A stretch of DNA of 62,812 bases from an uncultured Bacilli bacterium. Lineage in GTDB: Bacteria; Bacillota_I; Bacilli_A; RFN20; CAG-449. Below the pieces are notes generated by a model. It saw only the letters and a program-made list of their open reading frames with translations, was not told where the DNA came from and searched no databases. Position 1 is the first letter of the stretch. Every line of letters begins with the position of its first letter. The stretch spans positions 1 to 62,812 of the forward strand of contig CALVJL010000008.1 in NCBI GenBank assembly GCA_944332075.1, in the 5' to 3' direction. A program made the translations under genes and the position numbers. Below are positions 5,179-11,590 of the stretch, in pieces.

Positions 5179-6026
5179 TAGATGATCTTTACTCCTAAAA
5201 TCATCCCGGTTAATAATAATCCAAAGACGATAATGACGGTAATAAAGGAAAATAAATCACCTTTATGGAATTTTAATAACCGGTAGCGCGTCCTTTTTTT
5301 ATCAGGATCATACCCGCGCGCAATCATCGCATTAGCTAAATCGATGCTCCGCCCTAACGATGAAGCGATTAAAGGAATAATTAAAGAGATAATCGCCCGT
5401 ATCTTTTCTTTGAATTTTCCATCTTGGAAATCGACTCCGCGCGAAGCTTGGGCTTTCATAATTCTTTCGGTTTCATCAAGAAGCGTCGGAATAAACCGCA
5501 AAGCTAGAGAAATTGTCATAGCGAAAACATGAATTGGCACTTTAATCCATTTCAAAGGATGGAGAAGCCATTCTAAAGCATAGGTTAAATCCATCGGCTT
5601 AGTCGATGAAGTCAAAATCAAAGTCAGTGATAACATCAAAGCTAATCTTACAAAAATATAGAAAGTATTAATAAATGCCGAATAATAAATTGTCCAGTTT
5701 AATCCTGGAATGGTAAAAGAAACACTTCCAAATAATTCTAATGGTTCTTTAACAGTAAATAGATTGATAACAAATAAGAATAACATCATCACCCAAATAA
5801 GTTTTAACTGCCTAAAAAGCTGCTTTAAGGTAATATGAGCAACTTTCATTAAAATATAAATTAAAACCATCAACACGCCGTAAACGATTAAATTCGTCCA
5901 AGTAGAACCATAAGAAAAGAAAATCATGACCATGATTAAAATCATCGATACGAGTTTCGTCCGCGGATCAAGCCGGTGTAAAAACGTATCATATGGGGTG
6001 TAACGACCAATGGAAATATTAGCCAT
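5178..6026 (-). CDS. ecfT: ECF transporter transmembrane subunit EcfT
   Basis: EcfT links the two ATPases to exchangeable substrate-binding S components for vitamin and micronutrient uptake. The protein has 282 residues, about five hydrophobic segments, and two cytoplasmic coupling motifs, SRG (195-197) and ARG (236-238), that contact the ATPases. It overlaps ecfA2 by 8 bases and couples to truA. No classical S component lies in this operon, which suggests a shared (group II) module. Confidence 0.96.
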   Translation of the reverse strand: MANISIGRYTPYDTFLHRLDPRTKLVSMILIMVMIFFSYGSTWTNLIVYGVLMVLIYILMKVAHITLKQLFRQLKLIWVMMLFLFVINLFTVKEPLELFGSVSFTIPGLNWTIYYSAFINTFYIFVRLALMLSLTLILTSSTKPMDLTYALEWLLHPLKWIKVPIHVFAMTISLALRFIPTLLDETERIMKAQASRGVDFQDGKFKEKIRAIISLIIPLIASSLGRSIDLANAMIARGYDPDKKRTRYRLLKFHKGDLFSFITVIIVFGLLLTGMILGVKII

Positions 6027-7212
6027 GCTGCACCTCCTTTAATTCGGCAATCAAAGAATCAATATCTTTAATTTTTAATAAATTGAGTTTGATGCCTCTT
6101 TTAATTAATCGTTTAGCAAAGGTTAAAACTTCAGGTTCTTTCAAGTTATATTCCTTCTCTAAATCACTCTTAGCAAAGAGTTCTAACGGCGAAGAATCTG
6201 AGATTAATTTACCGTGATTTAAAACTAAGACGCGGGTCGCGTATTTTAAAACCAAATCCATATCATGGGTAATCATAATAATATCGGTGCCCTGATCATA
6301 TAAAGATTTAAAAAGCTTCATCATCTCGCGAGTTCCAATTGGGTCAAGACCCGCGGTCGGTTCATCAAGAATCAAGATTTTTGGATTTAAGGCGATAATC
6401 CCGGCGATAGCTACTCTCCGCTTTTGTCCTCCAGATAATTCAAATGGGGAACGAGAGAATAATTCTTCCCCGATACCAACTTTTTTCAAAGCTTCTTTAG
6501 CTTTTTCTTCGGCTTCTTGCTTAGAAAAGCCAAAATTACGCGGACCAAAGGCGACATCTAATAGAACGCTTTCTTCAAAAAGCTGATATTCAGGAAATTG
6601 GAAAACCATTCCGCAGTAGCTTTTTAAACTCTTTAATCCTTTAATTTTCTTTTTATTTTCCACGCAGAAAACGTTTTTAATGTCTTCTTTTTTAAAAGAT
6701 GAGTATTTATTCATCAACGGTGATTTTATCGCTATATAAGCCTCTTTGACGTCTTGAGGAAGTAATTCTTGTTTAAGAGATTTTACTTTTTTTATGACCG
6801 AGTAAGAATTATTTTCATCTTGATAGGCTACTAAAGTAAATTTTTTGCTTTCGAAAATTAAAATTAATTCATCTTTAATTAATGCTGCAAAGCTTAACTG
6901 ATGATCGACATAGCCTTCATAAAGATCATAGCCTTCAAATATTCCAGCATAAGCATAAACTCCCTCAGCGAGAGAGGATAATTTCTTTTGAATTTCGAAA
7001 GGGATTAATTCTCCGACCAAGACTTTGCCCTCAGTCGGTTTTAATAAAGCGTTAATCTGCTGAGCAAAGGTAGACTTACCTGATCCAGTATGTCCGACTA
7101 AAGCTAAGAAATCATGGCTATTTAAACTAACATTAATATCATTTAATGCGCTTGAAGCAAACGGAGAATGAGCTTGATATACATAAAAGACATTTTCAAA
7201 TCTTACTGGCAT
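6019..7212 (-). CDS. ecfA2: ECF transporter ATPase EcfA2 with large insertion
   Basis: One of the two ABC ATPases of the ECF module. Walker A GHTGSGKST is at 40-48, the Q-loop VFQFPEYQLFEE has Q205, the signature LSGGQ is at 259-263 and Walker B ILILDE is at 279-284. Typical EcfA2 has about 285-290 residues; this one has 397. The excess is an insertion of roughly 105 residues (about 75-185) between the first beta-strands and the Q-loop. All catalytic motifs are intact, so it should be active. It overlaps ecfA1 by 10 bases. Confidence 0.95.
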   Translation of the reverse strand: MPVRFENVFYVYQAHSPFASSALNDINVSLNSHDFLALVGHTGSGKSTFAQQINALLKPTEGKVLVGELIPFEIQKKLSSLAEGVYAYAGIFEGYDLYEGYVDHQLSFAALIKDELILIFESKKFTLVAYQDENNSYSVIKKVKSLKQELLPQDVKEAYIAIKSPLMNKYSSFKKEDIKNVFCVENKKKIKGLKSLKSYCGMVFQFPEYQLFEESVLLDVAFGPRNFGFSKQEAEEKAKEALKKVGIGEELFSRSPFELSGGQKRRVAIAGIIALNPKILILDEPTAGLDPIGTREMMKLFKSLYDQGTDIIMITHDMDLVLKYATRVLVLNHGKLISDSSPLELFAKSDLEKEYNLKEPEVLTFAKRLIKRGIKLNLLKIKDIDSLIAELKEVQHG

Positions 7213-8809: not shown

Positions 8810-11590
8810 TTATTCAGCAACGTAAGGTGTATCAGAGATATAAGAAGCAACAGCTGATAATCTAGATAATGATTTAGCTGCAGTAATGCTTTCTTCATCA
8901 GCAAAATAGATCTTGAAGCCTTCTTTAACTCCGGCGACAACTCCTTCTTTCCAGCTTGTTTTGAAGAAGCTAGTACCGACATCAATATTGCCAGAATAAG
9001 CAATACCATCGAGATTGCTATTAGCTAAAGCATATTCGCAAATCTTATATGTGCTATCGTTTAAAGTAACGATACCAGTTAAAGATTTATTAAAGTAATA
9101 GGCAGTTGAATAATCTGTTTTAATAATGGTTTCGCCTGCTTGGCTATCATCGTATTCAGCAATTGCGTAAAGAATTCCGTTTTCAACAATAAAGTCTTTA
9201 TTGCCTTCGGCAACAGAAATATCACCTAATTCTGGGCTCATATATAAATCTGAACCAGTGGTGTTAACATAGGTAACAGAAGCTGGGATAACGAAATCGC
9301 CATCATAAGCATTTGGTAAGTATTGTAAACTTGCCATGGTGTTATCTTTATAAATAGCACCTTGTTCATCAGCATAGTATTTAATTGATGAACCTTCAGC
9401 AACTGCATATTTGCTAATCTTTAAATTTTCAAAAGCTGAATCATCAGCAATCTTAGTTAAAGAGGTATAGTGATTATCAAGTGTAAGAGTTACTGGGTCA
9501 GTAGTGGTGACACCAAAAGCGTAAAGAGCATATCCAGAAGAATAAGTTCCTTCTTCAGCATTCTTGCTTGAATATCCAAAGAGAACCTTATATCCGTTAT
9601 AAGTAACAACTTCCATATGGGTATTAGCAGAATCAACAACGACATTTGCTAACGAAGTGCAGCCTTTGAAAATGTCGCTGCCTCTAGAAGAAGCTCCAGC
9701 ATCTTTACCAAAGAAAACTAAACTTAAATTAGTGCAACCAGAGAAAGTTTCAGTGCCTAAGCTCTTAGCGTTAACATAAATTGAAGTTAAACCTGTGCAG
9801 TCTTTGAATGCATATTTTCCTAAAGAATTAAGGTTGATATCAACAGTAGTTAATGAAGTGCAACCTTCAAAAACATTATTGCCGAGGGTGATAAGCTTAT
9901 CGCTAGTAGCTCCACCTTCATAAACGATTTCTTCAAGGTTGGTGCAGCCTTTGAATGCATCATTATTAATTTTGGTGATAGTAGCAGGAATATAAACTTT
10001 CTTAACGACAGTGTTGTTTAAGAAAGCTTTTGCAGCAATTGAAGTAACCGCCTTGCCGCTTTCATCAGTAGCAGCGATATGGACTTCTTCTTGAAGATTA
10101 CCTAAGTCGATGTTTGCTTGTTTAACAGCTGCTTGAGCAATTGTCTTAATAGCATTTGAAGAAACAGTTGCATGAGCAACGCTTTCAGTAGAAGTACCAT
10201 CAGTTCCAATTAAACCGAGAGCATCATCAGCAAAGTCTCCATCTTTATTATGTGAAGAAATCTTGCCGTCAAAAGCATAATCAGAAATCTTTAATGTAGT
10301 TGTGTCAACCGCGACATAAACATTGATTTCGCTAAGATATGTTCCAACGTTAGTTGATCCTTTATAAACGATGGTCTTTAAGGTACCATCTTGTTTAACA
10401 TCATAACGAGCTTTAATAACTCCATTTTCAGTAAAGGAAGTGTTTTTAACGAAATCACCAGAAGCAACTTCTGCTAAAATAGTTTGTTCTTCTGCAGTAA
10501 TATCTGATGAGAAGGTATTATCACCTGTTGAAGCAACTGGGAAATCCTTCGCAGCTTGCTCACAAGCAGCTTTTGCAACTGTCTTGAAAGCTTCTGAAGT
10601 CTTGGTTACACCAGTAATGTTATCAGTGACTGTTGTGCCATCAGTTCCAACAAATTTATTTTCCCAGCCTTCAAATGATGATTCATGATTCTCAAACGAA
10701 GAAGAAACAACCGATCCAATTGTTTTATAACCAGTGATTAAATGAGAAGCAGTATCAACTGCGACATAAGCTACAAATGGATGCTTTTCAGGTAATGTAA
10801 CTGTACCTCTATAAATAACTTTGGTAACTTTTCCGTTTTCAGTAACATCATAACGGTCGGTTAATACTTCACCAGCAGTGAAAGTTAAAACCTTTTTATA
10901 AGTACCTTTTCCCGCTAAAGCACTCAATGCAGATTTATCTTCTTCGCTTAAACCGAATTCAACTTTTGCATGTTGAACAGCTGTCTTAACTAATTCTTTA
11001 TAAATAGTTGTAGATTGAGTTAATCCGGTGACACCGTCAGTAATATTTCCGTCGGTTCCAACGAATTTATCATTAAAGTCACCTAAACCTCCCTCAGGTG
11101 GAGTCCATTGATCAGCAGGGACTTGTGACCACATAGTTCCAGTAAATTCAACGCCGGTAACTAAGAAGGTTTCAACATCAACGCCGACATAAGCGGTTAA
11201 ATAAGTACCCCAGCCTTTATCGACTTGAACTTTGTAAATGACGACTTTCAATGTTCCGTCTTGCTTAACATCATAGCGATTGACGATTTGAACAGTTCCA
11301 TCAGCAACAGAAGTTGATGGGTAATCATATTCTGTGAAATCAGCTTTAGTAAAATCACCTTCAGCAATTTCGATAAGAACAACTTTTTCTTCATCGGTAA
11401 TATTATCGCTGAATGTAGAGTTTCCAGTATCAACAGATGAAACGCTAGATGATTCTTGACTGGTTTGGCTGGTTCCAGAGCTAACCGATACAGAAGGTGC
11501 TGCACTTGTAGTTGATGAGGAAGTTCCTCCGCAAGCAGCTAAAGCGCAAAGGCAACCAAGTGATAAAAATAATAAACTTTTCTTTTTCAT
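8810..11590 (-). CDS. Large lipoprotein: FMN-bind-like repeats plus BspA-type LRR
   Basis: A 926-residue secreted lipoprotein. The signal peptide ends in the lipobox LAAC with C20, followed by a Ser/Thr-rich linker to about residue 60. Three related repeats follow (about 60-212, 217-350, 358-500), each with a RYDV..(D/N)GxxK segment, a YVxVD strand and a late motif: DGVTGLT (185-191), DNITGVT (323-329), ESVAHAT (469-475). These resemble FMN_bind domains and their D-x3-G-A-T flavinylation site, in degenerate form. From about 505 there is a BspA/LRR_5 region (AFKGCTNL, VFEGCTSL, TFSGCTNL, IFKGCTSL) and then a C-terminal beta-rich part. Flavin binding is inference; adhesion is an alternative role. 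It is monocistronic, with its own terminator, and interrupts the usual rplQ-ecfA1 order. Confidence 0.85.
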   Translation of the reverse strand: MKKKSLLFLSLGCLCALAACGGTSSSTTSAAPSVSVSSGTSQTSQESSSVSSVDTGNSTFSDNITDEEKVVLIEIAEGDFTKADFTEYDYPSTSVADGTVQIVNRYDVKQDGTLKVVIYKVQVDKGWGTYLTAYVGVDVETFLVTGVEFTGTMWSQVPADQWTPPEGGLGDFNDKFVGTDGNITDGVTGLTQSTTIYKELVKTAVQHAKVEFGLSEEDKSALSALAGKGTYKKVLTFTAGEVLTDRYDVTENGKVTKVIYRGTVTLPEKHPFVAYVAVDTASHLITGYKTIGSVVSSSFENHESSFEGWENKFVGTDGTTVTDNITGVTKTSEAFKTVAKAACEQAAKDFPVASTGDNTFSSDITAEEQTILAEVASGDFVKNTSFTENGVIKARYDVKQDGTLKTIVYKGSTNVGTYLSEINVYVAVDTTTLKISDYAFDGKISSHNKDGDFADDALGLIGTDGTSTESVAHATVSSNAIKTIAQAAVKQANIDLGNLQEEVHIAATDESGKAVTSIAAKAFLNNTVVKKVYIPATITKINNDAFKGCTNLEEIVYEGGATSDKLITLGNNVFEGCTSLTTVDINLNSLGKYAFKDCTGLTSIYVNAKSLGTETFSGCTNLSLVFFGKDAGASSRGSDIFKGCTSLANVVVDSANTHMEVVTYNGYKVLFGYSSKNAEEGTYSSGYALYAFGVTTTDPVTLTLDNHYTSLTKIADDSAFENLKISKYAVAEGSSIKYYADEQGAIYKDNTMASLQYLPNAYDGDFVIPASVTYVNTTGSDLYMSPELGDISVAEGNKDFIVENGILYAIAEYDDSQAGETIIKTDYSTAYYFNKSLTGIVTLNDSTYKICEYALANSNLDGIAYSGNIDVGTSFFKTSWKEGVVAGVKEGFKIYFADEESITAAKSLSRLSAVASYISDTPYVAE

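Follow-up and report, generated by a model that had tools for sequence, protein, structure and literature searches.

A lipoprotein joining three FMN_bind-like repeats to a BspA-type LRR in an uncultured Bacilli bacterium: a putative flavin-bearing surface redox protein

The window, by which we mean the whole stretch of 62,812 nucleotides analyzed here, is contig C8 of a 1.47-Mb genome (98.75% complete) from an uncultured Bacilli bacterium. At positions 8810-11590 on the minus strand, an ORF with an ATG start encodes a 926-aa lipoprotein in which three FMN_bind-like repeats are followed by a BspA-type LRR, and a syntenic orthologue in a sister species is 95% identical. The first-pass annotation of this DNA had reported a lipoprotein here, and the ORF is real: the translation opens with a signal peptide and an LAAC lipobox ending in the lipid-anchor Cys20 (aa 1-20; 11531-11590), and continues with a Ser/Thr-rich linker (aa 21-58; 11417-11530). 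Repeat 1 (aa 61-212; 10955-11410), repeat 2 (aa 213-355; 10526-10954) and repeat 3 (aa 356-505; 10076-10525) come next, all on the same strand, as are the LRR core (aa 506-665; 9596-10075; LRR_5 6e-24) and a C-terminal part of divergent LRR-like strands (aa 666-926; 8810-9595), whose LRR_5 match of 0.018 is under the cut-off and which is conserved in the orthologues of G002 and G082, two genomes described below. Within its own genus, the gene has a deaminase gene on one side and rplQ on the other. The neighboring ecfA/ecfA/ecfT genes are reminiscent of the Listeria flavin route; we set them aside as evidence for such a route, since ECF genes beside ribosomal genes occupy their usual housekeeping position. 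One ECF transporter ATPase of the window (6019-7212, minus strand, 397 aa) is interrupted after the Walker A region, ahead of the Q-loop stretch, by an insertion of about 110 aa that is also found in G002 (L079:718-1908).

The repeats, each of about 145 aa, are clearly related to one another. Pairwise local alignments scored 156-199, whereas shuffled sequences averaged 32-35 (z = 21-29), with z values of 26-29 for repeat 1 against repeats 2 and 3, and RYDV, YVxVD, and [FL][VI]GTDG with a late motif were found in all three, as the annotation of three tandem repeats with common motifs had held. In a Pfam scan of the whole protein, LRR_5 matched at 2e-23 and FMN_bind (PF04205) at 4e-6 over three stretches, the latter with 27.7 bits and thus above the curated cut-off of 22. 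When the repeats were scanned singly, repeat 3 gave the best FMN_bind match (7e-4), repeat 2 matched weakly (0.055), repeat 1 gave no match, and no single repeat reached the cut-off of 22 (20.6, 14.6 and none). As repeat 1 has no Pfam match of its own, it is assigned by its homology to the other two and by the fold. The protein thus combines more than one FMN-binding domain (three repeats, by homology) with an export signal and lipobox, as multi-domain FMN-binding proteins do, and LRR_5 repeats with an export signal, as BspA-type LRR surface proteins do. It is probably a membrane-anchored surface protein with three flavin-binding modules and an adhesion-type repeat; the LRR type suggests that the latter part may serve in adhesion.

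A PDB sequence search with the repeat profile gave at best E = 0.077 (CbFMN4 domain 1), and a fold search was therefore needed. AlphaFold2 was employed on repeat 2, supplied with eight further repeats drawn from the window and three other loci. The model of repeat 2 reached pLDDT 85 and pTM 0.83, and in a Foldseek comparison against the PDB its ranks 1-12 were all RnfG or NqrC, the best being RnfG of C. tetanomorphum (7zc6_G, TMq 0.71) and of A. woodii (9eri_G, 0.70); it also matched the minimal FMN domain SaFMN3-D2 (TMt 0.68). A model of the full ectodomain, built from three sequences, had a low overall confidence (pLDDT 63), and we took from it no more than the domain order and the LRR. It placed a helix-strands-helix order three times in succession before an LRR modelled at pLDDT of about 80-89, and matched T. 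pallidum TpLRR (6mlx, TMt 0.61), other BspA-like LRR proteins, and RnfG. Hence the BspA-type LRR part proposed earlier is supported by both its LRR_5 match and its TpLRR/BspA fold matches. The FMN_bind fold proposed with it holds for repeat 2, the only repeat modelled well, and extends to repeats 1 and 3 by homology and by the domain order of the low-confidence full model.

The late motifs are the putative flavin-acceptor sites. They read DGVTGLT in repeat 1 (aa 185-191; 11018-11038), DNITGVT in repeat 2 (aa 323-329; 10604-10624; DTVAGAT in the sister species) and ESVAHAT in repeat 3 (aa 469-475; 10166-10186; identical in the sister species), which puts the candidate acceptors at Thr191 and Thr329, as first annotated, and at the doubtful Thr475. 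The accepted ApbE acceptor motif is D-x-x-[ST]-G-A-[ST], and a review describes mutants of a fumarate reductase substrate: replacing Asp by Ala had little effect on flavinylation, Gly-to-Ala and Ala-to-Val changes left about 50% of it, and mutants without the Thr were no longer flavinylated (PMC12052999). None of the three motifs fits the strict pattern. DGVTGLT and DNITGVT depart from it only at the Ala before the acceptor Thr (Leu in repeat 1) and both fit the permissive [ST]-G-x-[ST], and in ESVAHAT the Gly is replaced by His. Across 22 repeats of the domain family, the acceptor was Thr or Ser in every case (22/22) and Gly stood at -2 in 18, with A (15), S (4), L (2) or V (1) at -1. Among 28 RnfG-type proteins of the same order, a set taken from Pfam matches and so biased, if at all, towards the canonical form, acceptor Thr/Ser and Gly were both invariant (28/28 each), and the -1 residue was A in 16, T in 5, S in 3, V in 2 and K in 2. 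The organism itself encodes an RnfG with AGTS.

RnfG function requires its flavin. Since the -1 position is nonetheless relaxed in RnfG, the Ala is probably not required within this order, which makes repeats 1 and 2 good candidate acceptors; repeat 3, which has no Gly, is doubtful, and its site may be dead. Two plausible sites and one doubtful site, as originally proposed, agree with both the RnfG tally and the published mutagenesis (PMC12052999). The accompanying label of degenerate repeats is apt only in part: the -1 change is a habit of the whole order, RnfG included, and no sign of local decay.

The earlier proposal presupposed an ApbE, and the genome indeed encodes one with intact motifs. 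It lies behind the Rnf operon on contig C12 (L005:7803-9599), where rnfC, D, G, E, A and B occupy the same region, and is a 598-aa lipoprotein that keeps the conserved stretches GKGYA, NGGD, TSGDY, HHIINPVTGYP and ADAITTGL and matches solved FMN transferases (1vrm, 3e-20; 6nxi; 4ifu; 7esa). A large insertion (about aa 200-360) splits its Pfam match, and the frame of the sister species is equally long. The RnfD encoded on C12 (L007:8962-10905) has 647 aa, some 300 aa beyond the usual length, and its C-terminal extension bears DLHVGATYT. Because long RnfD frames with Pfam FMN_bind matches also occur in G097, G022, G026 and G015, fusion of RnfD with FMN_bind may be widespread in the order. At the RnfG position, G082 (L078:3189-6170) and G055 (L121) encode proteins of about 1000 aa, in which FMN_bind-like repeats are numerous and their acceptor motifs mostly non-canonical (TGGT, SASAT, TGAS, SGGT).

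A paralogue on contig C1 (L006:9700-11157), a lipoprotein of 485 aa, has three repeats of this type and lacks the LRR. Each species of the genus has an LRR-less FMN_bind lipoprotein of this kind, with 2-3 repeats (the others being L081:4468-5499 and L080:3116-4558), and in 3/3 species it stands divergent beside an operon resembling glycerol-3-phosphate oxidoreductase/glycerol kinase. Near the paralogue of G002 is a gene for a 907-aa surface protein with an apparent Hint/intein-like C-terminus (L080:5279-8002; TCILYDTMITMGDGSTKPVQDI...).

Comparison with the sister species revealed a dN/dS of 0.10 overall, with 0.02 for repeat 1, 0.17 for repeat 2, 0.10 for repeat 3 and 0.07 for the LRR. The gene is under purifying selection and is no decaying frame. 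We accordingly rejected the view of repeat 3 as a drifting copy; the repeat is conserved. Divergence from the sister species is greatest in repeat 2 and extends to silent sites (dS 0.53 vs 0.17-0.31 elsewhere), the silent rate over 10526-10954 being about twice that in the remainder of the gene. The sister's repeat 2 is also similar to the third repeat of the C1 paralogue. This excess and this likeness together point to a conversion of repeat 2 with the third repeat of the paralogue.

We restricted the searches to the FMN_bind repeats, because a full-protein search was swamped by unrelated LRR proteins. A profile search of genome contigs with the repeat alignment returned three loci, all from MAGs of uncultured Bacilli. 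The relatives are MAGs, yet three genomes have the gene at one and the same locus. The FMN_bind-LRR fusion was found in five genomes examined, namely three of one genus (G000, G001, G002), G082 and G484. In the third species of the genus (G002), the gene is likewise flanked by the deaminase gene and rplQ and has a single FMN_bind repeat, which carries a canonical SGAT and aligns with repeat 3. In another family (G082), a one-domain FMN_bind-LRR gene with TGAS is found some 6.5 kb downstream of rnfCDGEAB-apbE, a linkage that is lacking in the window's own genus. In another order of the same class (G484), two FMN_bind domains, both with SGAT, are joined to LRR_5 (FMN_bind 8e-13, LRR_5 3e-44), and the genome has ApbE. 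Domains of the same kind without an LRR occur in G052, G054 and G056, in the last two together with Ig-like modules. The domain family is rare, with strong matches in 7/279 genomes of the order. All seven have ApbE and RnfD, against backgrounds of 153/279 and 157/279 (P = 0.014 and 0.017, values that ignore shared descent among about three independent lineages).

Taken together, the export signal, the three repeats, the predicted fold of repeat 2, the LRR, the presence of ApbE and Rnf, and the recurrence of the fusion lead us to propose, with a probability of roughly 0.6, a multi-flavinylated, lipid-anchored surface redox protein fed by Rnf that probably carries electrons of this complex to some target outside the cell. 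From these parts we infer flavinylation, an electron donor, a role for the LRR and a terminal acceptor. After export and what would be lipidation at Cys20, ApbE would move FMN from FAD onto Thr191 and Thr329, and perhaps Thr475. The membrane-proximal flavin domains might then be reduced by Rnf (through RnfG or RnfD), either directly or via the three-repeat lipoprotein paralogue, and would hand electrons outward to a terminal acceptor, while the distal BspA-type LRR could hold the protein on, or select, a partner or acceptor surface. The fold of repeat 2, ApbE with Rnf, their co-occurrence with the domain family, the linkage in G082, the retained acceptor Thr/Ser, the purifying selection and the G484 fusion all argue for this proposal. 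Against it count the position of the gene away from the Rnf operon in its own genus, single repeats that stay under the Pfam cut-off, and a co-occurrence of ApbE and RnfD resting on about three independent lineages; moreover, no report on the effect of an Ala-to-Leu change, as in repeat 1, on flavinylation was found in the literature searched. A wider version, which we put forward only tentatively, would see here a class of surface redox adhesins, flavinylated domains plus LRR, that wire Rnf to a chosen extracellular acceptor in small-genome Bacilli, together with a relaxed ApbE lineage whose flavinylation target is [STA]-G-x-[ST], the -1 residue being A, S, T, V, L or K.

The repeats might instead have kept the FMN_bind fold and lost the flavin, and now keep the LRR at a distance from the membrane, whether as spacers or as binding modules. 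We consider this rather doubtful. It would account for the departure of all three motifs from D-x-x-[ST]-G-A-[ST], for the lost Gly of repeat 3 and the sub-threshold scores of single repeats, and it sits well with G056 and G054, where the domain is paired with Ig-like modules and no LRR. However, Thr/Ser is kept in 22/22 and Gly in 18/22 repeats, and the same drift at -1 is seen in RnfG, where the flavin is needed. Homologous fusions retain canonical motifs (SGAT in G002, TGAS in G082, SGAT twice in G484), and ApbE is present in every genome with strong family matches.

Unlikely, in our judgment, is a flavoprotein that works independently of Rnf and serves a dedicated extracytosolic reductase or local redox sensing. 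In favor of such a role, the gene and Rnf are not linked in this genus, and the paralogue lies divergent from the glycerol-3-phosphate oxidation-like operon in three genomes; yet no extracytosolic reductase partner is evident adjoining the gene in the window, the fusion of G082 is linked to Rnf and ApbE, and Rnf was the sole transmembrane flavin electron system found in a non-exhaustive search of the genome. That the protein is a plain BspA-type adhesin with a chance likeness to FMN_bind is very improbable: the LRR is its strongest domain, but Foldseek ranks 1-12 are all RnfG/NqrC and the whole-protein FMN_bind score is above the cut-off.

If the proposal of an Rnf-fed surface redox protein is true, electron export and surface attachment are united in one protein, and flavin-based extracellular electron transfer extends to uncultured Bacilli with reduced genomes. 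Furthermore, the natural variation at -1 offers a ready set for measuring the real requirement of ApbE, and the outcome could let many FMN_bind proteins without SGAT, now passed over, be counted.

Multi-flavinylated proteins with up to 13 sites are common in Gram-positives, and their genes cluster with Rnf and with cell-wall-binding proteins (SLH, LysM, others) (Meheust et al. 2021, PMC8238504); two of them, SaFMN3 and CbFMN4, were characterized in 2023 (PMC10339131). The word 'leucine' is absent from the main text of the 2021 survey (PMC8238504), and no description of an FMN_bind fusion with LRR_5 or a BspA-type LRR was found in the open-licence papers searched. The earlier impression of novelty therefore stands for the fusion, which now extends to five genomes, but not for multi-FMN_bind surface proteins as such, which were already known (PMC8238504). 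What we describe is an unusual combination of known parts. The protein resembles multi-flavinylated FMN_bind proteins in being extracytosolic, with tandem FMN_bind domains of the same fold and an ApbE in the genome (PMC8238504, PMC10339131). It differs from them in its fused BspA-type LRR, in the replacement of the -1 Ala in two repeats and in one domain without Gly, and, compared with the SaFMN3/CbFMN4 type, in having RnfG-like domains of about 140 aa instead of minimal domains of 85-89 aa. RnfG and NqrC are the closest solved folds of repeat 2; in contrast to their single TM-anchored domain, the repeats here are lipid-anchored in tandem, encoded outside the rnf operon, and only 12-19% identical. 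PplA of Listeria monocytogenes, which we set beside our protein by description and take to be a surface lipoprotein with two flavinylated domains in a Gram-positive type envelope, as here, lacks the LRR, and its dedicated EET neighbors are absent beside our gene, with Rnf in the genome instead. Finally, the LRR_5 core is shared, in sequence and fold, with BspA/TpLRR surface proteins (6mlx, 4gt6, 4fs7), from which our protein is set apart by the three FMN_bind-like domains that precede it.
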